NCBI RefSeq assembly: GCF_026005215.1 | Contig: NZ_BPMA01000023.1 | Location: forward strand, 1 to 54,720 | Source of the DNA: Capnocytophaga catalasegens | Lineage (GTDB): Bacteria; Bacteroidota; Bacteroidia; Flavobacteriales; Flavobacteriaceae | Reading direction: 5' to 3' | Length of the DNA stretch: 54,720 bases | In this document: positions 23,802 through 54,465 of the stretch, one piece after another | How the letters are laid out: the number at the start of each line of letters is the position of its first letter | How positions within the stretch are numbered: the first letter of the stretch is position 1 | The notes under the pieces: model-generated | Databases searched by the model: none | Seen by the model: only the letters and a program-made list of their open reading frames with translations | What the model was told of the DNA's origin: nothing | Translations under genes and position numbers: made by a program

Positions 23802-24299
23802 ATGAGTATATCTAATTTGAATAATGTGCATTTGACCGATGAGCAAATCACAGCTATTAACCAAGCTATGGAGGCTTTGGAAAAAGCGCTTGCGCCATTA
23901 CAGATTAACCTTACTCCCGAAGCGAGACATCGGTATGGGCGAGTGAATGAACAGAACAAACTTTTTATTAACAGAGTGAATGATTTTGCGAGTTTGCAAC
24001 CGCAATTGAAATCACCTGATGTTGATTGGGACGAGTTTGCGCGTGATTACAAAAGTCGTACCTTTTTAGAAGGGCTTATCAATAGGCTTAATAGTCTTTC
24101 GACTCGTGCTAATAATTCTAAAATCTTGCATGATTTTGATAATTATCAAGAAGCACTAGAAGATTATGCGTATACTTCGTATCGGGCAGGCTCTCGTGGA
24201 GTCGGATTTGAAGAGAAATACAAAGAATTGAAGCAATTTTTTGCAAAAACTCGTAAAAATGTCGATAAAAATACAACCGATAAACTTATCAACGAATAA
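23802..24299 (+). CDS. conserved small helical protein next to a tandem array, function unknown
   Basis: A 165-residue soluble, mostly helical protein with no signal peptide and no cysteine. Regions of note: LTDEQITAINQAMEALEKAL; LTPEARHRYGRVNEQNKLFI; WDEFARDYKSRTFLEGLI; DNYQEALEDYAYTSYRAGS; EEKYKELKQFF. The HRYGRVNEQNK and DNYQ..YAYTSYR patches look like conserved functional surfaces. Similar sequences exist as a family restricted to Bacteroidetes, as far as I recall, without assigned function. A 15-bp perfect stem-loop (24315-24349) follows the stop, and directly after it starts a 42-bp repeat array (24361-24669). Confidence 0.7.
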   Translation: MSISNLNNVHLTDEQITAINQAMEALEKALAPLQINLTPEARHRYGRVNEQNKLFINRVNDFASLQPQLKSPDVDWDEFARDYKSRTFLEGLINRLNSLSTRANNSKILHDFDNYQEALEDYAYTSYRAGSRGVGFEEKYKELKQFFAKTRKNVDKNTTDKLINE

Positions 24300-24314
24300 A
24301 AAGTAAGTTTTACT

Positions 24315-24349
24315 AAGGAATTTATCTATCTACATAGATAAATTCCTTA
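24315..24349 (+). terminator. 15-bp perfect stem-loop between gene and array
   Basis: Arms AAGGAATTTATCTAT and ATAGATAAATTCCTT with loop CTAC. It is a strong stem, followed by ATTTAT rather than a pure T-run. It separates the 165-residue gene from the array. Confidence 0.7.
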
Positions 24350-24360
24350 TTTATATGTGC

Positions 24361-24669
24361 AAAAAACACCAAAAAATAAGCAAACTGCTCATTTAGATAA
24401 GTAAAAAGCACCAAAAAACAAGCAAACTGCTCATCTGGACAAGTAAAAAGCACTAAAAAATAAGCAGAATGCTTATCTGGATAAGTAAAAAGCACTAAAA
24501 AATAAGCAGAATGCTTATCTGGATAAGTAAAAAGCACTAAAAAACAAGCAAACTGCTCATTTAGATAAGTAAAAAGCACCAAAAAATAAGCAGAATGCTC
24601 ATCTGGATAAGTAAAAAGCACCAAAAAATAAGCAGAATGCTCATTTAGATAAGCAAAAAGCACCAAAAT
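24361..24669. repeat. tandem array 1: seven 42-bp units with palindromic cores
   Basis: Seven full units of exactly 42 bp and one partial. Core starts are 24376, 24418, 24460, 24502, 24544, 24586 and 24628. The best core is ATAAGCA-GAA-TGCTTAT (units 3 and 4, identical). The right arm, TGCTTATC, can also pair with the next segment, GATAAG, across a TG loop, giving two alternative hairpins. Other units differ by C/T changes in the stems and by GAA versus AAC in the loop. On the plus strand the stem changes give C-A mismatches; on the minus strand they give G-U pairs. No unique spacers are present, so it is not a CRISPR array. Confidence 0.9.
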
Positions 24670-24782
24670 ACATTAAAATAGTTTTGAGAAAGTAAGCAAA
24701 ATAATATAATTTGTTTTAAAAAAATAAAAATAAAGGTATCATATTATTAAAATTAGTTTATAACCTATAAAATTATAAGAAG

Positions 24783-25418
24783 ATGAAAAAGTTTATTATA
24801 ACATTAGTAGTTACAACAGTTACTATTTTTACAATGCAAGCACAAGAAGGTTTAGGACTTTCTCTAAAAGCAGGATTAAATATAAATCAAGGAACAATGT
24901 TAGTTTCGAGTTAAGATATAAAGACAGAGGGGCTTGTAGGTTTTCATGCAGGAGTAGCTTACGAAATAGGAATGTTAAAATATTTTGCTATAGAGCCAGG
25001 TATTTTATTAGATACTCGAGGATTTAAAATAGAGGGTGCAGATAGCAAGATAGATATAATAGGACTTACCATTCCAGTACTTGCTAAAGGGAAATTTGCT
25101 ATAAGTGATAAATTGCTTGTTTTTGCAAGTGTTGGTCCATATGCTAATATCGGATTAAGTGGTAAATCTCGTAAGAAAGGTGTAGATTATGATGTTGAAT
25201 TTGGTTCTAGTAATCCAAGCCAAATGAAGCGTGTGAATTATGGAATAAATTTTGGTGCAGGAATAGAGATTAACCGATTTATAATAGGTGCAGGGTATGA
25301 CTTAGGGCTTTCCAATCTTGGAAATTCAAACGTAGTTTCTGGTGGAATTATCAATGTTAATATAGATAACCAGATACATGTAGATGCTTTTAAACTTAGT
25401 ATCGGATATAAATTTTAA
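24783..25418 (+). pseudogene. outer-membrane beta-barrel gene with an in-frame stop
   Basis: From the ATG at 24783 the frame reads a signal peptide (MKKFIITLVVTTVTIFTMQAQ), a first barrel strand (GLGLSLKAGLNINQGTML), then VSS and TAA at about 24913-24915. Reading continues in the same frame with LVGFHAGVAYEIG and a full set of amphipathic strands to IGYKF at the end, with a terminal phenylalanine typical of outer-membrane proteins. The total is 212 codons with a single nonsense codon, so this is a porin-like barrel protein (OMP_b-brl_2 type) inactivated by one point change. No functional start lies after the stop that would restore export. Confidence 0.8.
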
Positions 25419-25605
25419 CGAATGGAATCCACTTATTATTATTTACTGATTTTGATACCTTACAATAAATTATAATAAGTAGTTTATATATCATTAGTTG
25501 AGATATTATTCGTATAAAATTCGTACTTTTTGACGCAAAAACAGGGATTGTTACTGGAAAAAATGATACTCAATGAAGTTTTGAAAAACAAAAGTTGGGG
25601 GTTAG

Positions 25606-25648
25606 TTCCTCTCTCATTTCTTTTTACAGAAGTCAGAGAGGAATTTTT
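25606..25648 (+). terminator. strong terminator hairpin with no gene just upstream
   Basis: Arms TTCCTCTCT (25606-25614) and AGAGAGGAA (25635-25643), with an inner TTCT/AGAA pairing possible, followed by TTTTTGT. Confidence 0.7.
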
Positions 25649-25795
25649 GTAAAATAAGGTGGCAAATCCTTGTTTTTATAAGGAAAATGCAGATAGAGAA
25701 GGGTAGAGGCAAGCTCTGAAATATATTATACGAATTCTTACTTTTGCCAAGCCAACAAGAAAACTATAATCGAAGAAAAACACAATGCCTGTTTG

Positions 25796-25825
25796 TTGTT
25801 TCTTTGAACTTTATTTGTAATTTTG
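25796..25825 (+). promoter_or_regulatory. mtaB promoter
   Basis: TTG 25796-25798, 19-base spacer, TAATTTTG 25818-25825, about 33 bases before the expected 5' leader's end at the ATG (25866). Confidence 0.55.
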
Positions 25826-25865
25826 CACGCACATAAGTAAGAGTTTATATTTTATTCATAAACAA

Positions 25866-27185
25866 ATGTCAGAAAATAAAAAAGTAGCTTTTTATACACT
25901 GGGTTGTAAGCTGAATTTTTCAGAAACATCGACCATAGCGCGTAGTTTTGAGAATGAAGGCTTTGATAAAGTAGCCTTTGACCAAGTAGCCGATATATAT
26001 GTTATCAATACGTGTTCGGTAACCGATAATGCCGACAAGCAATTTAAACAAATTGTACGTAAAGCCCTTAAAACCAATCAAAATGCTTTTATAGCAGCTA
26101 TTGGTTGTTATGCTCAACTTAAACCCGAAGAGCTTATAGCAGTTGATGGCGTAGATTTGGTGCTGGGAGCTAAAGAAAAATTCAACATTACCCAATATAT
26201 TGATGATTTGACCAAGCTTAATCAAGGTCAAGTACATTCGTGCGATATTAACGAAGCTGATTTCTACGTAGGAAGTTATTCGTTTGGTGATAGAACACGC
26301 GCTTTCTTGAAGGTACAAGATGGGTGCGATTATAAGTGTACGTATTGTACCATTCCGATGGCTCGTGGTATTTCACGTAGTGATACACTCGAAAATGTGT
26401 TGAACAATGCGTATGAAATTTCCAAGAAAGGAATTAAAGAAATTGTTCTTACAGGTGTGAATATTGGCGATTATGGCAAAGGCGAATTGGGTAATAAAAA
26501 GCACGAACATACGTTCTTGGAACTGATAAAAGAATTGGACAAAGTACAAGGAATTGAGCGCTTGCGTATTTCGTCAATTGAACCTAATTTGCTCAAAGAC
26601 GAAATTATCGAATTTGTCTCACAGAGTAAAACGTTCGTTCCGCACTTTCATATTCCTTTGCAAAGCGGAAGCAATACCATTCTTCGTAAGATGAAACGCC
26701 GATATATGCGTGAATTATATGTAGATAGAGTGGCGAAAATTCGTCAGTTGATGCCCGATGCTTGTATTGGGGTAGATGTTATTGTTGGTTTTCCTGGTGA
26801 AACAGACGAATTGTTCTTAGAGACGTATCATTTTTTGAATGAATTAGATATTTCGTATCTGCATGTATTTACATATTCAGAACGTGATAATACGGAAGCT
26901 ATTCAAATGGAAGGAATTGTGCCACACTCCGTAAGAGCCAAACGAAGTCGAATGTTACGAGGTCTTTCTGCAAAAAAAAGAAATGCATTCTATCAAAGTC
27001 AGTTAGCAACTGAGCATATAGCACTTTTTGAAGGTGAAAACAAAAAGGGATACATTCACGGATTTACAGAAAATTATGTAAAGGTGAAAGCTACTTGGAA
27101 TCCCGAATTAGTCAATACATTGCACCGAGTAAAACTCACCCGAATTGACAATGATGGAATACTTCGAATCGAATTTTTAGAATAA
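25866..27185 (+). CDS. mtaB: tRNA t6A37 methylthiotransferase MtaB
   Basis: A 439-residue radical-SAM enzyme that adds a methylthio group to t6A at tRNA position 37 (ANN-decoding tRNAs). The N-terminal domain has the three auxiliary cluster cysteines C14 (TLGCKLN), C50 (NTCSVT) and C81 (GCYAQ). The radical-SAM triad is CDYKCTYC (C154, C158, C161), and a C-terminal TRAM-like end is present. The TLGCKLN start is characteristic of MtaB rather than MiaB. It has its own promoter (25796-25825). Confidence 0.93.
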   Translation: MSENKKVAFYTLGCKLNFSETSTIARSFENEGFDKVAFDQVADIYVINTCSVTDNADKQFKQIVRKALKTNQNAFIAAIGCYAQLKPEELIAVDGVDLVLGAKEKFNITQYIDDLTKLNQGQVHSCDINEADFYVGSYSFGDRTRAFLKVQDGCDYKCTYCTIPMARGISRSDTLENVLNNAYEISKKGIKEIVLTGVNIGDYGKGELGNKKHEHTFLELIKELDKVQGIERLRISSIEPNLLKDEIIEFVSQSKTFVPHFHIPLQSGSNTILRKMKRRYMRELYVDRVAKIRQLMPDACIGVDVIVGFPGETDELFLETYHFLNELDISYLHVFTYSERDNTEAIQMEGIVPHSVRAKRSRMLRGLSAKKRNAFYQSQLATEHIALFEGENKKGYIHGFTENYVKVKATWNPELVNTLHRVKLTRIDNDGILRIEFLE

Positions 27186-27252
27186 AATGAATTGTCATTC
27201 TATTAAATTACATATTTTATGTAACTTTGTCTTTCTAATAAAATAAAAAAAT

Positions 27253-28329
27253 ATGAATGCAAAAATAATATCAAACGGAATACTTCGCGCAGTGGGTATT
27301 TTATTTGTCATTGTACTGGTAGCATATGCGATTTATGAACTCAAAACAATCCTTGTTTATGTAGTCATAGCAATGGTTATCTCTCTTATGGGGCGTCCTT
27401 TAGTACGTTTGTTAAAACAACGCTTACGTTTCTCTAATACCATAGCAGTTTTGTCTGTTATGGGACTAATATTACTGCTTTTAGGAGGTATTATCAGTAT
27501 GTTTATCCCGCTTTTGCTCTCACAGGGGCGCAATTTGTCCTCTATCAATTTTGAAACACTTACCAGTGGTATTGTCAAAAATATTAACCAAGGTGTACGA
27601 CTTATTGGGATAAAAAATTTCTCGGTTGATATAACTATGTTTTCACAATTATTTGATGTGAATGACATTTCTAGTATTGTCAATGGACTTATGACGTTGC
27701 TAAGCGATATTGGTATTGGGTTTTTCTCGGTAGTATTTATTGTTTTTTTCTTTTTGAAAGACGGAACAGCAATAAGCAATGCGTTTATTGGTTTAATAAA
27801 TAGAAAATATATAGGAAAAACGCGACAATCCATAGAAGCAATTAAGAATTTGCTTTCTCGTTATTTTGTAGGATTGCTATTACAAATCACAGTTGTTTTT
27901 GTTATTCTTACCATCGTACTACTTATTCTGGGCGTACAAGATGCGGTGATGATAGCCTTTTTGTGTGCACTTCTGAACTTAATTCCCTATTTGGGACCGC
28001 TTATTGGAGGGGTACTTATTAGCGTACTTACTATGTCAAGCTTTATCGAAGAAGATTTTGCCTCGGTGGTATTGCCCAAAATGATTTATGTACTTATTGG
28101 CTTTTTGATAGCGCAATTGGTTGATAATTTTTTCAGTCAGCCGATTATTTTTTCTAATTCGGTTAAGTCTCATCCGTTAGAAGTTTTTTTGATTATTTTA
28201 ATTAGTGGAACGCTTTTTGGTGTAGTAGGAATGGTTGTTGCCGTACCTGCTTATACAGTTATCAAGGTAATTCTCAAAGCTATTTTCGCAGATAACAAAT
28301 TTGTAAAACTTTTGACCAAAAATATATAA
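27253..28329 (+). CDS. AI-2E family transporter (PerM/YdiK-like)
   Basis: A 358-residue inner-membrane protein with about seven to eight TM helices. The C-terminal membrane block has the family pattern (FLCALLNLIPYLGPLIGGVL near residue 237, then QPIIFSNSVKSHPLEVFLIILISGTLFGVVGM). The family is named for autoinducer-2 export, but members differ and include cation antiporters, so the substrate is not known. A TAACTTTG -7-like element lies at 27223-27230. It is followed after 23 bp by the methyltransferase gene. Confidence 0.88.
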   Translation: MNAKIISNGILRAVGILFVIVLVAYAIYELKTILVYVVIAMVISLMGRPLVRLLKQRLRFSNTIAVLSVMGLILLLLGGIISMFIPLLLSQGRNLSSINFETLTSGIVKNINQGVRLIGIKNFSVDITMFSQLFDVNDISSIVNGLMTLLSDIGIGFFSVVFIVFFFLKDGTAISNAFIGLINRKYIGKTRQSIEAIKNLLSRYFVGLLLQITVVFVILTIVLLILGVQDAVMIAFLCALLNLIPYLGPLIGGVLISVLTMSSFIEEDFASVVLPKMIYVLIGFLIAQLVDNFFSQPIIFSNSVKSHPLEVFLIILISGTLFGVVGMVVAVPAYTVIKVILKAIFADNKFVKLLTKNI

Positions 28330-28352
28330 AATATCATTACAAAGCATTTATT

Positions 28353-29528
28353 TTGAACACGCTTCTATTACAACTTGAAGTTCAAGCCTTCATTGAAGAA
28401 CATTTGGCAAAAGATATAACAAAGCTATTGCTGGGGAAATCACTTTTTGAAGGAGTATCTCTTTCGGAATTAGCTACTCAAATAATTGGAAAAAATAAAT
28501 GCAAAAATAAGCTCCCTAAGTGGTTCTCTACCAAAGGAATATATTTTCCAGATAAGCTAGCAATAGAACAATCTTCTTCGCAGCAAGTAGCTCGTTACAA
28601 ATCGACTTTAGTACAAGGCAATGTACTTGATATGACCGGAGGCTTCGGAGTTGATACGTATTATTTTGCCAAGCAATGTAATAGTGTTATTCACTGCGAG
28701 TTACAGCAAGATTTATCTCAAATAGCAGCTCATAATTTTGGTGTATTCAAACAGAAAAACATTCAGTGTATAGCGCAAGATGCATTTGTTTTTTTAGCTA
28801 ATAATAAATTAAAATTTGATATAATTTATCTTGATCCAGCACGTAGAGACCTTGACAAAAACAAAGTTTTCTTCTTAAAAGATTGTATCCCTAATGTACC
28901 CGATAATTTGGATTTTCTTTGGCAATTTACCGATACTATTTTACTGAAAACTTCTCCGATGCTCGATATTCAGCAAGGAATAAGAGAACTTTCTAACGTG
29001 ACTGATATTCATATAGTTGCACTAAATAATGAAGTAAAAGAATTGCTTTTTTTGTTGAAAAAAGACTATACTGCCGATATACATATCCATGCAGTTCATA
29101 TCCACGCTCATTCTACAGATTCGTTTCACTTTGACCTCAATCAAAAAAATATGGAGGATACGGAATATGCTTCCCCTGAACATTTTTTGTACGAGCCTAA
29201 TGCGGCAATACTAAAATCAGGAGGGTTTGGAGTAATTCCTCAACAATTTCCTGTGAAAAAATTAGCACAACACACACATTTATATACAAGTGAAGACTTG
29301 GTAGATGATTTTCAAGGGCGAATTTTCCGTATAGAAAAGGTTGTACCTTTTAATAAATCACTTAGAAAACTTGTATCGCAAGCCAATATAACAACACGTA
29401 ATTTTCCTTTGTCCGTATCGCAAATACGTAAACAATTCAAAATAAAAGAAGGAGGGGAGCTGTATTTATTTTTCACTACCGATGCTTTGGGACAAAAAAT
29501 AATTATTTTCTGCGAAAAAAACCGATGA
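28353..29528 (+). CDS. class I SAM methyltransferase with THUMP-like C-terminal domain
   Basis: A 391-residue protein with a TTG start. The N-terminal segment (MNTLLLQLEVQAFIEEHL...) is conserved in relatives as I recall them, so the TTG is believed. The SAM-binding motif is VLDMTGGFGVDTYYFA near residue 90, with an acidic second motif (HCELQQ). The catalytic-type motif IYLDPARRD lies near residue 154 (like the NPPY/DPAR loop of base methyltransferases). A C-terminal THUMP-like region (residues about 300-390) suggests a structured-RNA substrate such as tRNA or rRNA; the exact site is unknown. Closely follows the AI-2E gene. Confidence 0.78.
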   Translation: MNTLLLQLEVQAFIEEHLAKDITKLLLGKSLFEGVSLSELATQIIGKNKCKNKLPKWFSTKGIYFPDKLAIEQSSSQQVARYKSTLVQGNVLDMTGGFGVDTYYFAKQCNSVIHCELQQDLSQIAAHNFGVFKQKNIQCIAQDAFVFLANNKLKFDIIYLDPARRDLDKNKVFFLKDCIPNVPDNLDFLWQFTDTILLKTSPMLDIQQGIRELSNVTDIHIVALNNEVKELLFLLKKDYTADIHIHAVHIHAHSTDSFHFDLNQKNMEDTEYASPEHFLYEPNAAILKSGGFGVIPQQFPVKKLAQHTHLYTSEDLVDDFQGRIFRIEKVVPFNKSLRKLVSQANITTRNFPLSVSQIRKQFKIKEGGELYLFFTTDALGQKIIIFCEKNR

Positions 29529-29540
29529 TTTTATAAAAAA

Positions 29541-29585
29541 CTGCGGTGATTTAAAGATTTTGCTTCAAATTACCACAGGTTTTAA
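29541..29585. terminator. imperfect terminator between convergent genes
   Basis: Arms CTGCGGTGATTT (29541-29552) and AAATTACCACAG (29567-29578) with two non-canonical pairs, followed by GTTTTAAA. It lies between the convergent methyltransferase and metE genes. Confidence 0.45.
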
Positions 29586-29631
29586 AATTATATTTTAATG
29601 TAATTTTATAGCATTATAAAGTATTCGAAAA

Positions 29632-31935
29632 TTAAGCATTATATTTTTTACGCAAATCTTTGGCTGTTTTTACCATTGCGACGAGTGCTTTTTTGGTTTC
29701 TTTCCAGTGGCGGGTTTTAAGTCCGCAGTCTGGGTTTATCCATAAGTTGCGTTTTGGGATTACGTTGATAGCTTTTTCCATCAAGAAACTCATTTCCTCA
29801 ACCGATGGTACACGAGGTGAGTGAATGTCATACACACCAGGTCCAATTTCATTTGGATATTTGAAATTAGCAAACACATCTAACAATTCCATTTGTGAAC
29901 GAGAGCACTCGATAGTGATTACGTCAGCATCCATATCAGCGATAGCTTCAATCATATCATTGAACTCAGAGTAACACATATGCGTATGAATTTGAGTGCT
30001 ATTTTCCACCCCTGATGCTGAAATTCGGAACGCACGAATAGCCCAGTAATAATATGCTTGCCAATCTTTACGGCGTAAAGGCAATCCTTCGCGAACTGCT
30101 GGCTCGTCAATTTGGATTATTTTGATATCTGCTTTTTCCAAATCTACCACCTCATCACGAATAGCCAATGCAATTTGCATACACGTTACTGAACGAGGTT
30201 GGTCATCACGAACGAATGACCATTGCAAAATGGTTACAGGTCCTGTAAGCATTCCTTTTACAGGCAATGAAGTCAATGATTGAGCGAACTTTGACCAACG
30301 AACTGTCATTGCATTCGGACGAGAAACATCTCCGTAAATAATCGGTGGTTTTACGCAACGCGAACCGTAACTTTGCACCCAACCGAATTTGGTGAAAGTA
30401 TATCCTTTGAGTTGCTCTCCGAAATATTCCACCATATCGTTGCGTTCGAATTCTCCGTGAACCAATACGTCAATTCCTGCATCTTCTTGGAAACGGATAG
30501 ACTCTTCGATTTCTTTTTTCAATAAAGTTTCATATTCTTCTAGCGGAAGTATACCTTTGTTGAAATTCGCTCTCCAACCTCTAACTTCCTGAGTTTGAGG
30601 GAATGAACCGATGGTTGTTGTTGGAAACAAAGGTAATTTCAATACATTTTGTTGAATAGTTTGACGCTCAGCGAATTTGCTCTTGCGGTGTGCATCTTTT
30701 TCAGTAATGGCATTCACACGCGCTTTTACTACTTCATCGTGAATCAGTTTAGATGTTTTTCGATTGTCATTAGCTATTTTATTTTGAATCACAGCTTGAC
30801 GTCCAGCATCGGTCAATGAATTAGAAGCTAAGGCTTTAAGCGTTGTTATTTCAGATAATTTTTGTTTTGCAAAAGCTAACCATTGTTTGATTTCAGGCGT
30901 AAGTACTTTTTCGTTATTTTCACGTTCTAAATTACAAGGAGAGTGTAATAGAGAGCAAGATGAAGCGATTAACACTTGGTCATTACCCAAAACTTTTTGA
31001 GCTTTTTTAATCAAAGCAACTGATTTTTCGAAATCGTTAATCCAAACATTACGTCCATCTACAATACCAAGCGACAATTTTTTACCTTTTGGAAGTTTTG
31101 TAAGTACTTCATCTAATTGATTTTCAGCACGAACCAAGTCGATGTGTAATATATCTAACGGAAGGTTCAACGCTAAATCAATGTTGTTTTCCAATGCTCC
31201 GAAATAAGTTGTTAAAATAAATTCCGTGATTGGAAATGCTTGTTTTAGCGAGCTATACACTTGGTTGTAAGCCTCTTTTTCTTTGTCAGAAAGGTCAAGC
31301 ACCAAGTATGGTTCGTCAATTTGAATAGTTTTTGCCCCAGCATCTACCAAACTTTGTACGATTTGTTTATAAACAGGTAATAAATTTTCAACCAATTCAA
31401 TTCTGTGGAAACCTTCCTCTTTTTCTTTTCCAAGGAGAAGATAGGTTACTAATCCTAAAAGTACAGGTTTGGTTTCAAAACCATTGGCTTTTGCAAATTT
31501 GTATTCGGCAAGAGCTTTGTTATATCGCAAGCTAAACGATTGATTTTTAGTAAATTCAGGAACTAAATAGTGATAATTCGTATCAAACCATTTGGTCATT
31601 TCAACTGCTGTGATATCAATGTCATTTTTTTGGTATCCACGAGCCAATGTAAAGTAAAGCTCCATATCTGAAAGTTGATTGATAGGAGTAAATCTGCTTG
31701 GAATTGCATCAACTGAAAATGAAAAATCTAACACTTGGTCATAGAACGAAAAATCGTTTGAAGGCAACAAATCGATACCCGCTTCTTTTTGTAAATTCCA
31801 ATTATGAATTCTGATAGTATTAGCCATATCAAATAGCTCTTTTTCAGATATTTTTCCTGCCCAAAAAGCCTCAGAAGCTTTCTTTAATTCACGTTTTTCC
31901 CCAATGCGAGGATAGCCTAATAGATTGGTTTTCAT
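29632..31935 (-). CDS. metE: cobalamin-independent methionine synthase (MetE)
   Basis: A 767-residue cytosolic zinc enzyme that moves a methyl group from 5-methyltetrahydropteroyl-triglutamate to homocysteine. The N-terminal and C-terminal barrels are both complete (N-terminus NLLGYPRIGEKRELKKA; C-terminal TTIGSFPQTQEVR near residue 435). The zinc site is recognisable in HMCYSEF, ECSR and INPDCGLKTR. It is the second gene of a metF-metE unit, 85 bp after metF, so donor folate is made and used by the same transcript. Normal length. Confidence 0.96.
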   Translation of the reverse strand: MKTNLLGYPRIGEKRELKKASEAFWAGKISEKELFDMANTIRIHNWNLQKEAGIDLLPSNDFSFYDQVLDFSFSVDAIPSRFTPINQLSDMELYFTLARGYQKNDIDITAVEMTKWFDTNYHYLVPEFTKNQSFSLRYNKALAEYKFAKANGFETKPVLLGLVTYLLLGKEKEEGFHRIELVENLLPVYKQIVQSLVDAGAKTIQIDEPYLVLDLSDKEKEAYNQVYSSLKQAFPITEFILTTYFGALENNIDLALNLPLDILHIDLVRAENQLDEVLTKLPKGKKLSLGIVDGRNVWINDFEKSVALIKKAQKVLGNDQVLIASSCSLLHSPCNLERENNEKVLTPEIKQWLAFAKQKLSEITTLKALASNSLTDAGRQAVIQNKIANDNRKTSKLIHDEVVKARVNAITEKDAHRKSKFAERQTIQQNVLKLPLFPTTTIGSFPQTQEVRGWRANFNKGILPLEEYETLLKKEIEESIRFQEDAGIDVLVHGEFERNDMVEYFGEQLKGYTFTKFGWVQSYGSRCVKPPIIYGDVSRPNAMTVRWSKFAQSLTSLPVKGMLTGPVTILQWSFVRDDQPRSVTCMQIALAIRDEVVDLEKADIKIIQIDEPAVREGLPLRRKDWQAYYYWAIRAFRISASGVENSTQIHTHMCYSEFNDMIEAIADMDADVITIECSRSQMELLDVFANFKYPNEIGPGVYDIHSPRVPSVEEMSFLMEKAINVIPKRNLWINPDCGLKTRHWKETKKALVAMVKTAKDLRKKYNA

Positions 31936-32020
31936 ATGTTTGTATCTTATTTTATTTCTTTTCGAAGGAGAGGAGTTTATTATTTATTGTATAAAAAATT
32001 GTCTGTCAGTACTGCTAACC

Positions 32021-45834: not shown

Positions 45835-45858
45835 GCAGTCATAGAATAATTATAAAAA

Positions 45859-45882
45859 AATCAGGGATTTCCCTGATTTTTT
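45859..45882. terminator. bidirectional terminator
   Basis: AATCAGGGA-TT-TCCCTGATT followed by TTTTT and preceded by a run of A. It lies between the convergent DUF1573 and AAA ATPase genes. Confidence 0.82.
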
Positions 45883-45903
45883 TATTTAAATACTAATTTT
45901 TTA

Positions 45904-47040
45904 TTATAAAAAACCAATTTTGTTATCAGTTTGGTTTTTTAATTCTTTCAAATCAATATTGGTTAGTTCAGCGAGTGAAAAAGGTTTATCAACAACAACT
46001 GATTTTCCAATAAATTGTAAATATTTATTACATTTTTCTATCGAAAGTTCTTTGAATTTGTATTCTGCAATAAGGCGTCCTTTTCTAAGTAAGGCAGAGT
46101 CTATTTTAGAAATATCAGAATTAAAAGTACATATTAGCTGGCATTCTAAAACATCTGAAAGGATACCATCGGCTATGTTTAGAATAGATGAAACCACATC
46201 GGTATTGCTGTTAAAAGCCGTTCGTTCTGCGATATAATTTTCGCAGTCTTCCAATACTAAAACCGAATTTTTGTTATCAATAAGTAAACCGATAAAACTT
46301 GGGTCAGTTAGTGAACCAATCATTGAAGTTGGAACAAAGATAAATTTTTTGTTAGGAATTTGACTTGTAAGCCATTTGATATAATTAGTTTTTCCAGAGC
46401 CAGCTATTCCGTGGAAGAGTACAATGCCTTTGTTTTCGTCTGTAATAGCGTGTTTCACTCGGTTGTGAATTTCTAAAAAATCGTCATTGTACATCGTATC
46501 AAAATCAATACGATAAGGTTTTATAGTATGTGTTTTTAGCTCAATACCAGTTTGTGTTTTTAGCAAAAGAGAAACTTTTGATTCTTTGGAAATGTATTTT
46601 TCAATATATTCTGAAAAAAGAATTTCGAGATTTTCTTTGGCTTTTGCATTGGTATTTTCGTAATAAACATAATTGACTTTAAAGAGTCCTTCGTCAAATA
46701 TTTGATTATCATATTCATTAGATAAATTACTGGTTGTCAGTATGAAAATTTCTAATTCGGGATGAAAAAAACAAGCTTCACTCTCAAAAAGTTTGTTTTG
46801 TTTTGATGCATATTCAATAGAATAAAAATCGGTACATTTGACAAAATTTTTCAATTTTTCTATCTGAATAACCAAATCGTCATTGTACAGATACAGCACT
46901 GAAAGCAAATCATCTAACAGATTGCGAAACGGATTGGTAAAAGCTAATAATTTGTGTTTATCAACTAATTCAATATGTTCCTGTTCATCTAACCCCATTA
47001 TTTTGATGGGGCGATAATATTTTGAATTTATTATTTTCAT
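45904..47040 (-). CDS. AAA family ATPase of unknown role
   Basis: A 378-residue protein. The N-terminal 190 residues are not recognised; the C-terminal part is an AAA module. Walker A is HGIAGSGKTNYIKWL near residue 210, Walker B is SVLVLEDCENY near 258, sensor 1 lies in LICTFNSDI near 303, and an arginine-rich segment (LLRKGRLIAEYKFKEL) follows near 318, as in BCS1-type and related AAA proteins. The role is unknown; it may remodel a protein partner. It is encoded 40 bp upstream of trmD on the same strand reading away from it, without obvious coupling. The coding bases match the neighbours, so there is no sign of transfer. Confidence 0.75.
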   Translation of the reverse strand: MKIINSKYYRPIKIMGLDEQEHIELVDKHKLLAFTNPFRNLLDDLLSVLYLYNDDLVIQIEKLKNFVKCTDFYSIEYASKQNKLFESEACFFHPELEIFILTTSNLSNEYDNQIFDEGLFKVNYVYYENTNAKAKENLEILFSEYIEKYISKESKVSLLLKTQTGIELKTHTIKPYRIDFDTMYNDDFLEIHNRVKHAITDENKGIVLFHGIAGSGKTNYIKWLTSQIPNKKFIFVPTSMIGSLTDPSFIGLLIDNKNSVLVLEDCENYIAERTAFNSNTDVVSSILNIADGILSDVLECQLICTFNSDISKIDSALLRKGRLIAEYKFKELSIEKCNKYLQFIGKSVVVDKPFSLAELTNIDLKELKNQTDNKIGFL

Positions 47041-47080
47041 TTTTTTATTTTATTAAAGTAGGAAAAAATCGAATAGTATT

Positions 47081-47761
47081 TTATTTGTCTTTTAAGAGGT
47101 CAGGACGACGATTTAGCGTATGTTCGTACGCTTTTTCTTCACGCCATTGTTCTATTTTGGGAGTATTTCCACTGAGAAGAATTTCAGGAACTTGCCATTC
47201 TTTGTACAATGCAGGGCGCGTATATACAGGAGGTGCTAACAGATTATCTTGAAATGAGTCGGTAAGTGCCGAAGTTTCATCAGAGAGTACGCCAGGCAGA
47301 AGCCGAATAACTGTATCACAGAGTACAGCAGCGCCTAACTCTCCGCCCGAAAGGACATAATCTCCAATAGATATTTCGCGAGTGATAAAATGGTCGCGCA
47401 CACGTTGATCGACTCCTTTATAATGTCCGCAAAGGATTATAATATTTTGTAAAGTTGAAAGTGTATTGGCTGTTTTCTGATTTAGGGTTTGTCCGTCGGG
47501 TGTCATATAAATTACCTCATCATAGGTGCGTTGAGATTTAAGTTGTGTGATGCAAGTATCAATAGGTTCTATCATCAGTACCATACCTGCACCACCGCCA
47601 AATTGATAATCATCAACTTGGCGATAATTCCCTAAACCATAATCTCTTAAATCATGAAAATAAATCTCAACTAGTTTTTTTTCGATAGCTCTTTTCAGAA
47701 TAGAAGCTTCAAAAGGACTTTTTAAGAGTTCAGGCAACAATGTAATAATGTCTATTCGCAT
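47081..47761 (-). CDS. trmD: tRNA (guanine-N1-)-methyltransferase TrmD
   Basis: A 226-residue SPOUT-family enzyme that methylates N1 of G37 in tRNAs, preventing frameshifting. The SAM-binding knot motifs are intact: [18 protein letters not shown] near residue 111, and [20 protein letters not shown] near 129, with the catalytic-region aspartate in [10 protein letters not shown] near 165. Its ATG shares one base with the TAG of the preceding coiled-coil protein gene (both at 47761), so translation is coupled. Confidence 0.94.
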
Positions 47762-48366
47762 TAGATGCCTCTGTTTTTGTTGATTTCGTCTTGTAATTGT
47801 CGTCTAACTTTTTGTTCTCTTTCAATGGCTTTGCTACGATAATCTTCGTATTCGCTTTGTAATTCTTCCAAATCTTTGATAGAGCGCTTGGTAACAATAT
47901 TTGATTTAGAAAAACGGAAGATATAGAAAGCCAGCAGAGAGGTAAGTACAAAGATTATTCCCCAGACGATAACTGAATAAAGCCCTTTGCTGATAAGCGC
48001 TCCAAAGAAGTTGATACTATCTTTCTCGTTTTTGAGTTCATTAAGATTGTTTTGAAGTGTATCTATTTGTTGATTGAGTTCTTTTATCTGTTGCTCATTA
48101 CCAGTAATTGCATTTGTCTTTTCAAGCAGTAGATTTTGTTGAGCTTTTAAGCTATCTTGTATATTTTTCTTTAAGGTGTACAATTTCATTTTGGGAACCA
48201 CCTTGAATTGTTGCCAACTATTCGATTTCTCTATAACATCATCAAACTGATTTTCAATTGTATTGGGTCGATTTACAGCCACAGCAAGCGTATCTGTTGA
48301 TTCTTGTCCCCAAGAAGTTTGCATACTTGTTAGTACAAGTGTTGAGATAAAAATTTTTAATTTCAT
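47761..48366 (-). CDS. coiled-coil single-span membrane protein, translationally coupled to trmD
   Basis: A 201-residue protein with a signal peptide (cleavage near GWGQ, about residue 21), a periplasmic coiled coil (about residues 65-115: [18 protein letters not shown]), one TM segment (about 126-150: [22 protein letters not shown]), and a cytoplasmic second coiled coil (about 160-198: [22 protein letters not shown]). Such proteins are often misannotated as tRNA methyltransferases because they sit next to trmD; nothing in the sequence supports enzyme activity. Its function is unknown. Confidence 0.75.
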
Positions 48367-48500
48367 ATCAATAATATTTTTACGAACAGCAAAAGTAACG
48401 TTTTTTCTTAAAAGACAAAAATAAATTCAATTAAAAAAAATATAAAATGTTATTTTGCTACAAAAATAACTTTTTTCATCATTTGATTTGATTTTTTTAG

Positions 48501-48508
48501 TATATTTG
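48501..48508 (+). promoter_or_regulatory. -7 element of the SPOR-domain gene
   Basis: TATATTTG at 48501-48508, 22 bases before the ATG at 48531. The -33 is unclear. Confidence 0.45.
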
Positions 48509-48530
48509 CCCCAATTAAATTATTTTATTG

Positions 48531-48887
48531 ATGAAAACGATTTATTTCTGCTTGTTTTTTGTGAGTAGTGTCTGCTTTTTTTCAGTATTTTCGCAAGAAA
48601 TGAAAATCAATCAAAGTGCACAAATTAAAGAGCTTATGGAAGTTAAAAAAGAATTTGGACAATTGGAAAAAACCTTCCAAATTCAAATTTATAATGGCAA
48701 TGTAACCGATGCGAATAACGAAATGAAAAATGCCTCGGCTAAACTCAATATGCCTGTTTCTATAACTTTCGAAACGCCTAACTATAAAGTACGTGTTGGC
48801 AAATTTCGCTCGCGGATTGAAGCCGAAAAAGCACAAACAAAAGTACGCGCGCACTATCCTGCTTGTTTTGTAATTTCTCCTTATTAA
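48531..48887 (+). CDS. secreted SPOR-domain protein
   Basis: An approximately 118-residue exported protein. The start is the ATG at 48531, not the TTG three bases before. The signal peptide is MKTIYFCLFFVSSVCFFSVFS. Residues about 50-118 form a SPOR domain (TFQIQIYNGNVTDANNEM and YKVRVGKFRSRIEAEKAQTKVRAHYP), which binds denuded glycan strands of peptidoglycan at division sites or other remodelling sites. The gene stands alone upstream of the histidine kinase gene (100-bp gap). Confidence 0.85.
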   Translation: MKTIYFCLFFVSSVCFFSVFSQEMKINQSAQIKELMEVKKEFGQLEKTFQIQIYNGNVTDANNEMKNASAKLNMPVSITFETPNYKVRVGKFRSRIEAEKAQTKVRAHYPACFVISPY

Positions 48888-48986
48888 AGAAATCAAGAGC
48901 AATTATCTCTAAGAGTTAGAAGGGCGTTTTTTCAACAAAACTTCTTTGTTTGCAACAGATATTCTATTAACTTATATCTTGGTGAT

Positions 48987-50432
48987 ATGTTACGAAAGAC
49001 TTCACTTCGGTTTCGGATAATGGTCAGTATGATTCTATTTGTGGTGGTAGCTTTTGCTGTAATCGCCTTGGTTACAACGATGCAGTACAAGAAGCAATCG
49101 GTCAAGTATCACAAAGAACGCCTTTTGCACAAAGAGAAGCAAATAAAAACCCAGATACAATATACATTGTTGCAAACAACATTTCCGGTTGAAGCACAAT
49201 ATATCCCACTGATATTCAAAGATGAAATCTATCGAATATCGAATATTCAGAATGTAAATTTTAATCTGTACGATTTACAAGGGACTTTACTTAAAAGTTC
49301 ACGTGCTGTTTTAGATGAAAGATTTGCCCACATTTGTATTCCAGACTCTATACTCAATGCGTTGGAATCGGCTGTGAATAAACGATACATAGAGCATACT
49401 ATTATTGATAAGAAAGGTTATCAATCTTCGTATTCGTATGTGAATGATAATCAGTTTAAACCCATTCTGATACTGCATATACCTAATTTTGAAAACGATT
49501 CGTTCAACGAAAGCTCTTTGCGAAATTCGTTGTATAATTTGTCTATGGTATATGTAGTACTACTGATTATCGCTGTGGTATTGGCGTATTTTATTTCGAC
49601 CTATATTACTAAATCATTAAAAACAATTGAGAAGCGACTTACTCAAACGCAGTTTCTTGAACACAATGAGAAAATTATTTTAGAAAATCCTTCCGCAGAA
49701 ATAGGGCAATTAATCACCGCTTATAATTCGATGATTGATGAAATAGAAAGGAATAAACAGGCACTGGCAAAAAATGAACGGGAGCGAGCTTGGCGCGAAA
49801 TGGCAAAGCAAATTGCTCACGAAATTAAAAATCCGCTTACTCCTATGCGCTTATCTATTCAGAGTTTTGAACGAAAATTTGACCCAAATTCGCCCAACGC
49901 ACACCAGAAATTGACCGAATTCTCGCAAACACTCATTCAACAGATTGATACACTCAGTAGTATCGCTTCGGCTTTCTCTACCTTTACTCAAATGCCCGAA
50001 CAACAACGTGAATATACCGATGTAGTCAAAATAGTACAAAACACAATTGATATTTTTGATAAAGAATGTGTTTTCTTTCAAAGTGAAGTCAAAAAAATTA
50101 TCGCTTTTGTTGATAAAAATCAAATCAATCGAGTGGTAACCAATCTACTGAAAAATTCGCTACAAGCAACCAGTAATCTGGCAAAGCCTTATATTGAAGT
50201 GTTACTTCGGGTAGAAAACAAAGAGTTAGTTCTCTCTGTTAGAGACAATGGAATGGGGATTTCCCCAGAGTTACAAGAAAAAATATTTGAACCGAAATTT
50301 ACTACCAAAAGCACTGGCTCAGGGCTGGGCTTGGCAATGGTCAAAAACATTGTTCAGTCGTATCAGGGACGCATCGAACTGATTTCGGAACTCAATAAGG
50401 GCGCTATGTTCGTCATTTACATTCCGTTATAA
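48987..50432 (+). CDS. orphan sensor histidine kinase
   Basis: A 481-residue inner-membrane kinase. TM1 (about residues 10-31), a periplasmic sensor of about 150 residues, TM2 (about 187-206), a HAMP-like linker (to about 260), then the DHp domain with the phosphorylated histidine H278 in AHEIKNPLTPMRLSIQ. The ATPase domain has the N box (VVTNLLKNSLQATSN), G1 (VRDNGMGIS) and G2 (TGSGLGLAMVKNI). The family resembles NtrY-like kinases (LTPMRLSIQ is typical). No response regulator lies beside it, so the partner is elsewhere. The gene runs 42 bp before the exo/endonuclease-fold gene. Confidence 0.9.
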   Translation: MLRKTSLRFRIMVSMILFVVVAFAVIALVTTMQYKKQSVKYHKERLLHKEKQIKTQIQYTLLQTTFPVEAQYIPLIFKDEIYRISNIQNVNFNLYDLQGTLLKSSRAVLDERFAHICIPDSILNALESAVNKRYIEHTIIDKKGYQSSYSYVNDNQFKPILILHIPNFENDSFNESSLRNSLYNLSMVYVVLLIIAVVLAYFISTYITKSLKTIEKRLTQTQFLEHNEKIILENPSAEIGQLITAYNSMIDEIERNKQALAKNERERAWREMAKQIAHEIKNPLTPMRLSIQSFERKFDPNSPNAHQKLTEFSQTLIQQIDTLSSIASAFSTFTQMPEQQREYTDVVKIVQNTIDIFDKECVFFQSEVKKIIAFVDKNQINRVVTNLLKNSLQATSNLAKPYIEVLLRVENKELVLSVRDNGMGISPELQEKIFEPKFTTKSTGSGLGLAMVKNIVQSYQGRIELISELNKGAMFVIYIPL

Positions 50433-50474
50433 ATTGGTCTGAAAGTTAATCATTAGTAAGTAAAACAAATTCGT

Positions 50475-51503
50475 ATGTGGAAATCACTTCATTTTATAGA
50501 AAAATGTATCTTTGTGCTCAATCTGTTTTTGGGCGGATTGCTCTTGTTTGGGTACGTTTTGCCCTATATTCCTCCGAAATACTTTGCATTTTCGTCATTG
50601 AGCCTTTTTACGCCTTTACTTCTGATTATCAATATCTTTTTTATGGTATTGTGGATTGTAAAAAGCAAGAAAGTTTGGCTATTTTCAGGAGTGTTGTTTG
50701 TGTTGGGTATTCCTTTTTTGAATCGATTTATTCAGTTTTCAGGCGAAAATAATCCCCAAGATACGGATATAAAACTCATGTCATTCAATGCACGCGTATT
50801 CAATTATTATAATTGGCACACTGACACTACACTACATACCAAAATTGTTGATTTTATTGACCAAGAACACCCTAATATTATAGCCATTCAAGAATTTTAT
50901 CGCAAAGAAAGTAATAGTTTTGACTTTTATAAATATAAAAAGATTATTTACAAAAATGCCAAAGATAACATTGGGCAGGCTATACTGAGTGATTATCCGA
51001 TTATTCACAGCGGTTCGCTCAATTTTCCTCATACCAAAAACAATGGGATATTTGCAGATATTTTGATTGAAAAAGACACTTTGCGCTTGTATAGTTTACA
51101 CTTCGAGTCGTTTCATATCAATCCAGAAGAGCAAGAATTATCGCAAGAAGGGTCTAAGCGCTTGTTGTTAAATTTGGGAAAACGATTTGCACTGCAACAA
51201 TCTCAAGTTGAACTACTTGAAGCACACTATAAAGCATGTCCTTACAAGATTATTCTCTGCGGTGACTTTAACAATACGGCTTTTTCGTACTTGTATCGGC
51301 GTATAAAATCGGGGGGACTTCAAGATAGTTTTGTTGTTTGTGGGAAAGGATTTGGACAAACGTTCAATTTTAGCTATTTTCCGTTGCGAATTGATTATAT
51401 TTTTACTGACCCCGTATTGCAACTATCAAGTTTTAAAACTTTTTCAGATATAAAATACTCTGACCATTATCCTATTTTAGCAACATTTCGTTTTGCTGAA
51501 TAA
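50475..51503 (+). CDS. endonuclease/exonuclease/phosphatase-fold membrane protein
   Basis: A 342-residue protein with two to three N-terminal TM helices (about residues 12-85) and a C-terminal EEP domain (about 95-342). Catalytic landmarks of the fold are present: MSFNARVFN, AIQEFYR with the metal-binding Glu, HFESFH, ILCGDFNNTAFS (Asp/Asn), and the last SDHYPILATF with the conserved Asp-His. The fold covers nucleases and lipid or sugar phosphatases; being membrane-anchored and facing outward, a periplasmic phosphodiesterase or phosphatase is plausible. The substrate is unknown. Follows the histidine kinase, maybe in the same transcript. Confidence 0.83.
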   Translation: MWKSLHFIEKCIFVLNLFLGGLLLFGYVLPYIPPKYFAFSSLSLFTPLLLIINIFFMVLWIVKSKKVWLFSGVLFVLGIPFLNRFIQFSGENNPQDTDIKLMSFNARVFNYYNWHTDTTLHTKIVDFIDQEHPNIIAIQEFYRKESNSFDFYKYKKIIYKNAKDNIGQAILSDYPIIHSGSLNFPHTKNNGIFADILIEKDTLRLYSLHFESFHINPEEQELSQEGSKRLLLNLGKRFALQQSQVELLEAHYKACPYKIILCGDFNNTAFSYLYRRIKSGGLQDSFVVCGKGFGQTFNFSYFPLRIDYIFTDPVLQLSSFKTFSDIKYSDHYPILATFRFAE

Positions 51504-51704
51504 TTTTTATTCCAATTTTTATCACAACCGCTTTGTTACGCTGAATCAAGTTAAAATACAGTAAATTCTCACACTTAGCCAACTCGAAGTGTAGTAAATA
51601 TTACCCTAATCGAAGTCAAAGTGCAGTAGGATACACTATAAATCAATTTATACATGGTATAAAAATGTATGTTTTTCTTTCAAAAAATAATTGTTTAATC
51701 TAAT

Positions 51705-52907
51705 TTATGAACTTTTGGAAGTACTATTTCGTACGCGCTCTTGAAAATCACTCAATATATTCATATAATTGATATAGGCTTCGTACGGAGAGGCGTAGGG
51801 TGAGTCATTATTAGGAATGTATTCGGTAGAAAGTAACTTGGTTCGCATATAATAAAAGTGGTTACTTGCTTGCAATCGGCTATATACACGCAAAAGTTCT
51901 TCATCTTTACATTTTTTTATATTCTCATAAATAGAAAATAGTTCTTCGAAGGCATTTTCTTGTAGTTCATTACCAAGCCACGATGTAATATCACGCTCTT
52001 CATCTGTCCAAGAGATAGGATTGGGGACATAAATGGCTTCTTCGGCTTTGAATTTCTTAGCTACTTCCGTAGGGGTTAAAAAAGCATATTCTTTATCGTC
52101 TAAAATATATTGTGGAAGGTATTTTAAGAAATCAAAAATACCAGATTCGGGTTTATTATATTTTCCAAAGGCTTGATAATCCATAAAAAGGTTTATGACA
52201 TCGCCTTCGGTTAGGCTACTTTTGAGCCAGTGTGCATACTTTTGTGCAGTAAGTGGATATTCATTCCAATTTTTGTCTGAAAATCGGAGTGAAATATCAT
52301 CACTTAACTTAGAATTCTTCAATAGTATCTTAATTTTATCATTATCGGGGTGATGATGTACAAAATTTGGATTTTTCCACCCAAGAATGTGTTTAGCTCC
52401 CTCTGTAAGGATTGTTTTAAACCCGAGTTTAGCAATTCTTTTACCTATTTTGTCTGAATAAATGAGTGAAGTATTACGAAAAGCAACCGGTTTTTTTCCA
52501 AAAAGCTCTTTAATTCGTTTTATATGGTGTTTTACATCACGTTCGAACTCATCGGTATTGTCAGAAAGTGATGATAGGGAATGTGAATAAGGTTCGCAGA
52601 GGAATTCTACGCAGTCCGTTTTGGCTAAATCTTGCAGACTTAGAATAACTTCGGGAGCGTGAAGTTCTAAAAGTTCAATCGCACTACCTGAAATGGAAAA
52701 CGCTACTTTAAAACGTCCTTTATATTTTTTGATTAGTTCCATCAGGATGTTGTTGGCAGGGAGATAACATTTTTTAGATAGTTTCTCAATATCTGCTTTA
52801 TTTATATAATAGTCAAAATAGTCTGTACGCTTACCTATATCAAAGAAATGATACTTGCGTAGTTGTTCTGGGTGATGAATTTCGAAATAAAAACAAATAG
52901 CTTTCAT
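51705..52907 (-). CDS. glycoside hydrolase family 57 protein
   Basis: A 400-residue protein matching the short GH57 form found in Bacteroidetes. Conserved regions: CFYFEIHHPEQL at the start (His-containing motif 1 region), VAFSISGSAIEL near residue 68, VEFLCEPYSHSLSS near 99, TEGAKHILGW near 167 (region of the catalytic glutamate), and LFMDYQAFGKY near 227 (with the likely acid/base aspartate; active relatives often read DYETFG). It probably acts on alpha-glucans such as glycogen. In related genomes the gene is commonly beside a glycosyltransferase or glycogen synthase gene, but here it is alone. Confidence 0.8.
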   Translation of the reverse strand: MKAICFYFEIHHPEQLRKYHFFDIGKRTDYFDYYINKADIEKLSKKCYLPANNILMELIKKYKGRFKVAFSISGSAIELLELHAPEVILSLQDLAKTDCVEFLCEPYSHSLSSLSDNTDEFERDVKHHIKRIKELFGKKPVAFRNTSLIYSDKIGKRIAKLGFKTILTEGAKHILGWKNPNFVHHHPDNDKIKILLKNSKLSDDISLRFSDKNWNEYPLTAQKYAHWLKSSLTEGDVINLFMDYQAFGKYNKPESGIFDFLKYLPQYILDDKEYAFLTPTEVAKKFKAEEAIYVPNPISWTDEERDITSWLGNELQENAFEELFSIYENIKKCKDEELLRVYSRLQASNHFYYMRTKLLSTEYIPNNDSPYASPYEAYINYMNILSDFQERVRNSTSKSS

Positions 52908-53004
52908 AATTAAAAAGATTTAATTAAACATATTTTACTTATATTTTATAACTTAATATATATTTTTTGGTTGTATTATAAAAATTTCGGGATAATTCTA
53001 TTAT

Positions 53005-53373
53005 TTATACATCTGAACGTAATCTATTCTGTGCTTTGGTTAAAACTGCCAAATAGAAAGGAAAGGCAAATGCCAAAGCAACTATTGTACCAAGTATAAT
53101 GTATAATAAAGGATATTTTATATGATATTTTTTTGATGAAGCAAATACAAATACAATAAAAGCAATATTGACAATTGTTAAATCTACAGCAAAAGAAGTC
53201 GTAACAGCATTTGCAGATAAATCAGTAATTAATTGTTCTGAGAAGAAATTCCCTCCCTCAGACATATATTGTAGATTATACTTCCAAGTAACTATCAATC
53301 CTATAAAGGCAATTACATAATACAGATTTACTAAATTAAAAATACGTGAAGTGTTTTTCATTGATGGTTTCAT
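53005..53373 (-). CDS. DUF2834-type small membrane protein
   Basis: A 122-residue protein with about four TM helices (roughly 12-30, 55-77, 85-108 and one short). The N-terminal FNLVNLYYVIAFIGLIVTWKYNLQY and the helix with SANAVTTSFAVDLTIVNIAFIVFVF are the DUF2834 pattern. The function is unknown. An alternative start at MKNTS (53361) would drop four residues. It lies 15 bp after the DUF6261-like gene on the minus strand, so the two are likely transcribed together. Confidence 0.75.
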   Translation of the reverse strand: MKPSMKNTSRIFNLVNLYYVIAFIGLIVTWKYNLQYMSEGGNFFSEQLITDLSANAVTTSFAVDLTIVNIAFIVFVFASSKKYHIKYPLLYIILGTIVALAFAFPFYLAVLTKAQNRLRSDV

Positions 53374-53387
53374 ATGCTTATATATAT

Positions 53388-54053
53388 TTATTTTTTAGCG
53401 GCTTTTACAAATTCATTTAGTTTATTATAGAGAGGAATCCATTGTTCGGCATCGAACATAAGGGTTACTAAATCAAGAAAACGACGTAAATCTTTTTCTA
53501 ATTTTTTGCGTAGTTCTGTAGCACTTTTAATTTCTCGAAGTTCTGAATTGGCTTGTGCTTGTTGGTCAAAGATTTCTATGAAATTTTGATGCGATTTCTT
53601 TAATTGTTCAAAAGCTGTTTCTATCGATAAATTCTTAATGCGTTCTTGATTTTTAATAGAATTAAGAGCTTGAATCAATTTACTTAACTGAATAGTTTGC
53701 TCAGCATAACTAAGTTTATCTATTTTAAGACCATAGAGTTTAAATTCTTCAAAAAGAGCTATTGCATCTATATTATTGGGTGCAGAGTCGAGCTGTATAT
53801 ATCCTTCAAGGAATTTTTTCAATGAGCGAAAGGCTTGATCACGTTCTTTATCAGCTTTGGCAACACTTTGTCCTTTTCCACTAAATGTTTGTTTAGAAAC
53901 TACTTCGTAATAAGGAGTGTAAGATGATTCTAATTTCTTTAAAAACAAATGATTTTGTACTTCGCTAATTTCTGATTGTTTAGCAGTCTGTATAACACGT
54001 TCGGCTAATGCTGCTAAATCTTTGGTGGATAATTGTCTATAATTTACTTTCAT
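53388..54053 (-). CDS. helical hypothetical protein (DUF6261-like) beside a tandem array
   Basis: A 221-residue soluble protein predicted almost entirely helical, with no signal peptide and no cysteine. Segments such as LSTKDLAALAERVIQTAKQS, KADKERDQAFRSLKKFLEGY and KKLEKDLRRFLDLVTLMFDA suggest a long helical bundle. It resembles the Bacteroidetes-restricted DUF6261 proteins from memory; no function is known. The gene has a very good promoter (54088-54117), and just upstream of that lies the second tandem array (54153-54465), so the array is outside its own transcript. The small membrane protein gene at 53005 follows. Confidence 0.7.
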   Translation of the reverse strand: MKVNYRQLSTKDLAALAERVIQTAKQSEISEVQNHLFLKKLESSYTPYYEVVSKQTFSGKGQSVAKADKERDQAFRSLKKFLEGYIQLDSAPNNIDAIALFEEFKLYGLKIDKLSYAEQTIQLSKLIQALNSIKNQERIKNLSIETAFEQLKKSHQNFIEIFDQQAQANSELREIKSATELRKKLEKDLRRFLDLVTLMFDAEQWIPLYNKLNEFVKAAKK

Positions 54054-54087
54054 AAAAATTGAATTTAATACATTAAAATATTTGCAA

Positions 54088-54117
54088 CAAATATACGTAT
54101 AAAATATTTAATATCAA
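54088..54117 (-). promoter_or_regulatory. promoter of the DUF6261-like gene, next to array 2
   Basis: TATATTTG is the complement of 54088-54095; TTG is the complement of 54115-54117; the spacer is 19. The array begins about 36 bases beyond the -33 element. Confidence 0.65.
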
Positions 54118-54152
54118 TCATTTTTAATAAAAAAAATAGTATATGAAATTAC

Positions 54153-54465
54153 TTTTTTTCATACAATGAAATATGTTGTTTTTGCTAGATTAACCTTTTT
54201 CATACGATGAAATATGTTATTTTTTCTATATTAACCTTTTTTCATACAATGAAAAGTATTATTTCAGATAGAATTTAACCTTTTTCATACGATGAAAAGT
54301 ATTATTTCAGATAGATTTTAGCCTTTTTCATACGATGAAATATGTTATTTCAGATAGATTTTAACCTTTTTCATACGATGAAATATGTTATTTTTTCTAG
54401 ATTAAACTATTTTCATACGATGAAATATATTATTTCAGATAGATTTTAACCTTTTTTATATCGAA
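54153..54465. repeat. tandem array 2: seven 41-43-bp units with palindromic cores
   Basis: Seven units plus a decayed eighth. Core starts are 54157, 54198, 54240, 54283, 54326, 54369 and 54411. The invariant core is TTTCAT-ACG-ATGAAA (loop ACG, or ACA in units 1 and 3). In unit 5 the following bases give GAAATA-TGT-TATTTC, so the middle arm can pair left or right, as in array 1. Spacer sequences between the cores vary between two main types (TTTTTTCTAGATTAA and TTTCAGATAGATTTT). No unique spacers. It lies between the edge gene and the DUF6261-like gene. Confidence 0.88.

Follow-up and report, generated by a model that had tools for sequence, protein, structure and literature searches.

Helical proteins beside private, helically phased repeat arrays in Capnocytophaga catalasegens: a predicted protein-DNA recognition system

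In a stretch of 54,720 nucleotides from Capnocytophaga catalasegens (contig NZ_BPMA01000023.1 of assembly GCF_026005215.1; hereafter the window), two tandem arrays of different sequence each lie beside a gene for a small protein, one belonging to the DUF6261 family (PF19775) and the other to an unnamed family that is termed family A here. The locus raises the question of whether gene and array are neighbours by coincidence or form a pair. In this study, an association between helical proteins and adjacent arrays was established computationally, and it resembles a system of protein-DNA recognition not described before, which is predicted below, with cognate recognition of DNA as the likeliest mechanism judging from the sequence patterns.

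The 2.92-Mb draft genome of this organism (100 contigs) contained 30 DUF6261 places, 29 of them above the cut-off with full open reading frames (ORFs), and 8 family A places, one of which was a fragment. Tandem Repeats Finder (TRF), at a score of at least 100 in the fetched flanks, detected an array at 20 of the 29 full DUF6261 genes, always upstream (20/20), and at 6 of the 8 family A places, always downstream (6/6). Periodicity was then assessed in 500-bp flanks at lags 12-74 for loci from this genome and its genus, from other families and from named genomes, which are not independent because some are orthologues; the fragments L055 and L025 and the duplicate loci L130, L131, L140 and L146 were dropped beforehand, and flanks were too short or contained N at three DUF6261 loci upstream and at two family A loci on each side. 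Upstream periodicity was significant in 42 of 62 DUF6261 loci, at lag 41 (10 loci), 42 (29) or 43 (3) and at nothing else, and downstream periodicity in 1 of 65. For family A, the downstream flank was significant in 21 of 31 loci (lags 21, 22, 42, 44, 63, 65 and 66) and the upstream flank in 8 of 31 (lags 14, 15, 20 and 42). Furthermore, TRF reported upstream arrays of 41-42 bp, or doubled, at 8 of 17 loci in the named genomes (Empedobacter, Chryseobacterium, Epilithonimonas), and such an array was also present at L128, from a genome related at the phylum level only. Side and period are a family rule: DUF6261 arrays lie upstream and family A arrays downstream. The original prediction had taken the differing order of gene and array as a weakness; the order does differ, and it follows this rule rather than noise.

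The background was taken from 40 systematic 20-kb stretches of the same genome (27% of one draft genome), with ORFs of at least 100 amino acids, in which regions with a weak periodicity maximum received no further test. Significant periodicity was found upstream of 14 of 562 control ORFs and downstream of 15 of 558, and in 13 of 205 upstream gaps of at least 150 bp. Six of the 14 upstream matches belonged to DUF6261, PQLLE (see below) or candidate genes, and adjacent ORFs often shared one array. Against this background, the association of array and protein goes beyond coincidence, as had been proposed, and most of the homologues covered do have an array close by, which was the outcome that the original prediction asked for. 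Moreover, 27 of the 29 significant control flanks had lags near 21n (21, 41-44, 63 or 65), and therefore helically phased arrays are nearly the sole strong intergenic periodicity in the sample.

A third family emerged from arrays classed as orphans, two of which, of 63 bp, were found upstream of genes matching NF052641, the "PQLLE family protein". All six PQLLE places in the genome scored above the NCBIfam cut-off of 80, at 119.2 to 213.2 bits, and 21n periodicity was present upstream in five of the six and downstream in none. Among the four places that had not been used for finding the family, three had the upstream 21n array that was predicted, the exception being a fragment. Two further candidate families, both helical-looking and each with a 21n array upstream, are represented by a 230-amino-acid protein of no named family (L225:14118-14810) and by a 106-amino-acid protein weakly like PQLLE, below the cut-off (L071:2921-3241). 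HU-HIG was rejected as a further array family: an array scoring above 100 was found at one of eight places (44 bp), and two more places had weak AT-rich 22-bp repeats with scores of 84 and 89. An array upstream of an HU-HIG gene (L059:9656-9770) resembled the array of the family A gene L024 at z 7.6-8.9, inside the control range of the comparison described below. Burroughs and colleagues have reportedly written on the expansion of HU-HIG in Bacteroidetes.

Each locus has its own, private unit sequence, and likeness between units is found mainly among close orthologues. Array likeness (z >4) was found in 6 of 6 DUF6261 pairs above 80% protein identity, one of which compares a single gene, retrieved twice, with itself and concerns a different kind of repeat; it fell to 2 of 5 pairs at 65-80% identity, 7% of 59 pairs at 50-65%, and at most 1% below 50%. 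The corresponding figures for family A were 0 of 5 pairs at 65-80% and 20% of 10 pairs at 50-65%, with no pair higher. Units were kept between orthologues of Epilithonimonas and Chryseobacterium, and degenerate family A arrays kept a short core, such as GTTC-N-GAAC (by eye), at 21-bp spacing while the spacer sequence drifted. This private character, shared mainly among close orthologues, supports the cognate pairing of protein and repeat. A truncated family A gene (L025:1468-1665) retained an array that resembled the one at L019, a relative (z 18). Faster evolution of the array-linked genes than of their neighbours was considered and rejected, the comparison not being consistent. When homologues of the array-adjacent genes were located in 18 other species, the fetched flanks held neither gene nor matching array, and one unrelated 44-bp array was seen (L181); no clean empty site was obtained because gene order is not conserved there. 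The genus loci L080, L081, L110, L111 and L118 carried longer tandem repeats (periods 83-231), partly with the motif CTGAGCGAAGTCGAAG, which differ from the private arrays.

Arrays without such a gene, here called orphans, were compared with the home regions of the array-bearing genes (15 orphan arrays against 44 home regions, with 60 column-permuted controls). The orphan set excluded arrays that precede PQLLE or other helical genes, and those that lie in long ORFs or have a period of 51 or 285 (C2:36285, C16:161047, C65:20001 and C12:116027); it kept L210a, which overlaps a 126-amino-acid mechanical ORF, and L224, which consists of two short arrays with 78 N between them. Six of the 15 matched one particular home array at z 11.4 to 54.8, above the best control (maximum z 9.9, with 3 of 60 controls above 6.5). 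Five of these sister matches were clear (z at least 15.1); the sixth, L213, was marginal, since its match (z 11.4, 62%) was AT-rich and gapped and extended beyond the array. Three of the remaining orphans scored z 6.8-8.8, inside the control range, and six lower. In the five clear pairs, the likeness did not extend beyond the arrays (flank z -1.0 to 2.4). For array 1, the sister lies elsewhere in the genome (G000:C14:80278-80538; 69% over 251 bp, with a 42-bp period in both), a match that by whole-genome BLAST alone was weak (E 0.028); array 2 gave matches of 18-20 bp only. In Empedobacter, home array and sister array are 8 kb apart. The expectation that the arrays belong with these protein families held partly, as there are arrays apart from such genes too, some of which match a home array.

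In the window itself (Table 1), both arrays and both genes were confirmed where they had been noticed, and all other TRF rows across it scored 74 or less. The 42-bp unit of array 1 consists of two 21-bp halves, in which the half-sites ATAAG and CTTAT alternate about one helical turn apart (by eye), and the unit of array 2, of about 43 bp, contains the dyad core TTTCATACGATGAAA. The -7 box in Table 1 was labelled after TAnnTTTG, the Bacteroidota consensus. The DUF6261 protein matched PF19775 at 72.6 bits (Pfam gathering cut-off 27), and the family A protein had no Pfam or NCBIfam match at the cut-off; hhalign of their two alignments detected no homology (probability 0.5%). Neither translation contains a cysteine, as had been stated. 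The further statement that both proteins are helix-rich stood for the DUF6261 protein, predicted as a helical bundle (predicted local distance difference test, pLDDT, 88.7; predicted template modelling score, pTM, 0.55); for family A, the single-sequence model was poor and of no use (pLDDT 46.9). A search of solved structures by sequence gave nothing convincing, and a scan of six proteins for anti-phage defence systems in PADLOC-DB gave a lone weak match (E 0.0053). Downstream of array 1, an outer-membrane beta-barrel gene (PF13568; 24784-25418) is probably a pseudogene; its frame contains a TAA near 24914, and the mechanical ORF begins only at 24972.

Table 1. Positions of the two arrays, their neighbouring genes and associated signals in the window
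Feature	Position	Strand	Description
Family A gene	23802..24299	+	165-amino-acid protein; family unnamed
Terminator-like hairpin	24314..24349	+	16 pairs, loop 4; z -4.8 against shuffles; between family A gene and array 1
Array 1	24361..24672		TRF: period 42, 7.3 copies, 90% matches
DUF6261 (PF19775) gene	53388..54053	-	221 amino acids; all-helical model
TATATTTG, Bacteroidota-type promoter -7 box	54088..54095	-	Between array 2 and DUF6261 gene
Array 2	54154..54460		TRF: period 43/85, 7.2 copies, 83%; upstream of DUF6261 promoter-like box

The iteron arrays of plasmid Rep proteins are a close model for these observations. Iterons are direct repeats about 20-22 bp (two turns) apart, the gene lies beside the array, specificity is private, and distant arrays are paired by handcuffing. 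Here too, direct repeats are phased at whole turns (lags 41-43, 21-22 or multiples) with the gene beside the array; unlike iterons, the present arrays are chromosomal, occupy about 40 places in one genome, and adjoin three protein families in which no initiator domain was found. The window proteins had no Pfam match to a winged-helix Rep initiator, and a fold search returned matches of helical-bundle type only. We consider it on the whole probable that each helical protein and its adjacent array form a cognate pair acting through iteron-like sites at the DNA level, with binding and bridging as predictions. Each array would be a run of such sites, with a spacing of two helical turns in family A and PQLLE and of four in DUF6261; subunits on successive units would then share a face of the helix and could assemble cooperatively. 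The protein would attach to its home array and also, if the chromosome carries one at another place, to a sister array with that unit; the two arrays would then be bridged, or handcuffed, which may restrain the protein's own expression. The bridging step is bold but testable. That the neighbouring protein is the binder, that binding is cooperative, that arrays are bridged and that all this serves some cellular purpose is what we infer from these patterns.

Several findings weigh against so simple an interpretation. About a third of the loci had no clear array, and L090 lacked a significant one although its 92%-identical orthologue L091 has about five units. Sister arrays were found in promoter-type and convergent gaps alike. 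Moreover, the fold search with the DUF6261 model brought up no recognised DNA-binding fold.

Ordinary autoregulating transcription factors, with the home array as the operator at their own promoter and the sister arrays as operators of targets, would account for the promoter-side position of the DUF6261 and PQLLE arrays and for the sister or candidate sister arrays that precede a gene start by no more than about 260 bp (lnt, MATE, trxB and HU-HIG, all except HU-HIG named by eye). Such an explanation seems rather unlikely, as arrays of family A follow the gene and in the window come even after the terminator-like hairpin; the sister arrays C18:9726 and C16:102242, and the marginal one of L213, lie between convergent gene ends; the promoter-like box precedes the array in some DUF6261 loci and follows it in others; and no helix-turn-helix match was found in Pfam. 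In type III toxin-antitoxin loci such as toxIN, a small protein gene is likewise preceded by tandem repeats of about 40 nt (roughly 36-48 nt), which act as RNA there, and at L050 the TATATTTG box immediately precedes the array, as would suit transcribed repeat hairpins bound by the protein. The evidence makes this distinctly improbable here. In a set cleared of duplicates and of other kinds of repeat, a stem longer than in shuffles (p<=0.05) was found in 6 of 29 DUF6261 arrays, array 2 included, and in 1 of 10 family A arrays, which was not array 1; stem changes comprised 46 G-T against 52 A-C cells, showing no G-U preference and no sign of RNA pairing. The units described as palindromic are so in that minority, and the data lend no support to a hairpin as the generally recognised form. 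In addition, periods cluster at 21n, one family has its array downstream, array 1 stands behind a terminator-like stem, and the window has no Rfam match. At the level of Pfam models, the window proteins had no match to a ToxN-like endoribonuclease. Periods of two or four helical turns, the variable promoter position and the lack of G-U bias together favour a DNA-level iteron-like array over RNA.

Arrays also exist without such genes, as passive satellites gathering in gaps would, and BrickBuilt of Porphyromonas gingivalis offers a precedent within the Bacteroidota, with 19 intergenic elements carrying a 23-nt tandem unit inside a miniature inverted-repeat transposable element (MITE). In the available portions of its description (PMC4596501), BrickBuilt has one common unit, inverted ends and no named partner protein, whereas here the units are private, side and period are fixed per family, and particular genes adjoin; a MITE-like element was rejected, with terminal inverted repeats at p<=0.05 in 2 of 32 arrays, close to the chance expectation. 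Together with the low control counts given above, this leaves a satellite origin very improbable. The periods 21, 42 and 63 are multiples of three, 21 bp would be one heptad, and a 21-bp x3 repeat in the window (4007-4071, in ORF 3730-4146) does encode heptads, being coding, unlike the arrays, at the same period; periods of 22, 41, 43 and 44 bp in many arrays break the frame and therefore exclude coding for those arrays, so that repeated peptides deserve almost no credence. ParB-parS, MatP-matS and the REP-associated tyrosine transposases (RAYTs) with their repetitive extragenic palindromic (REP) sequences resemble the present pairs in that a protein has its cognate sites at several positions on the chromosome; these systems usually have one protein and site set per genome and known folds, whereas many paralogues with private arrays occur here. 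Neither window protein matched a Pfam transposase model (Y1 expected), and no ParB- or MatP-type domain was matched. Membership in toxin-antitoxin-RNA, REP/RAYT or partition systems, as originally suggested, was thus not borne out.

The distribution is patchy, with 6 of 296 sampled genomes of the phylum, this one included. The window's DUF6261 group (E<=1e-40) was present in 9 of 40 genomes and family A (E<=1e-6) in 13 of 40, again with this genome counted. The proposal that both proteins are confined to Bacteroidetes is consistent with 14 control genomes outside Bacteroidota, none of which gave a match over the cut-off, and is not proven by so small a search. Neither the window's family A protein nor its DUF6261 group was found in viral contigs, and DUF6261, alone searched there, was not found in phage records; family A was not found on plasmids, and DUF6261 occurred in one Riemerella plasmid record. 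No description of the system was found in the listed literature on DUF6261 (an incidental mention only), PQLLE (nothing) or HU-HIG (unrelated-looking papers), in that on repeats or iterons with Bacteroidetes, Capnocytophaga, Flavobacterium, P. gingivalis or the HU superfamily, or in the available portions of PMC5771137 and PMC6749651.

In conclusion, it is possible, though doubtful, that these pairs make up a previously undescribed address system of Bacteroidota, in which at least three helical families (DUF6261, PQLLE and family A, plus two candidates), with tens of genes per genome, each read a private phased array and tether it to a sister, so that independent pairs would organise the chromosome. 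Should this hold, one chromosome would be served by dozens of orthogonal pairs of array and sequence-specific protein, built on a protein type without a recognised DNA-binding fold. This would give a function to DUF6261 and PQLLE, which are named and whose function has so far been left blank, and to one unnamed family, and it would account for most of the intergenic tandem arrays seen where this genome was sampled. Furthermore, the organisation of the chromosome would be opened to direct test, and the pairs would be a source of many independent DNA-binding specificities as tools.

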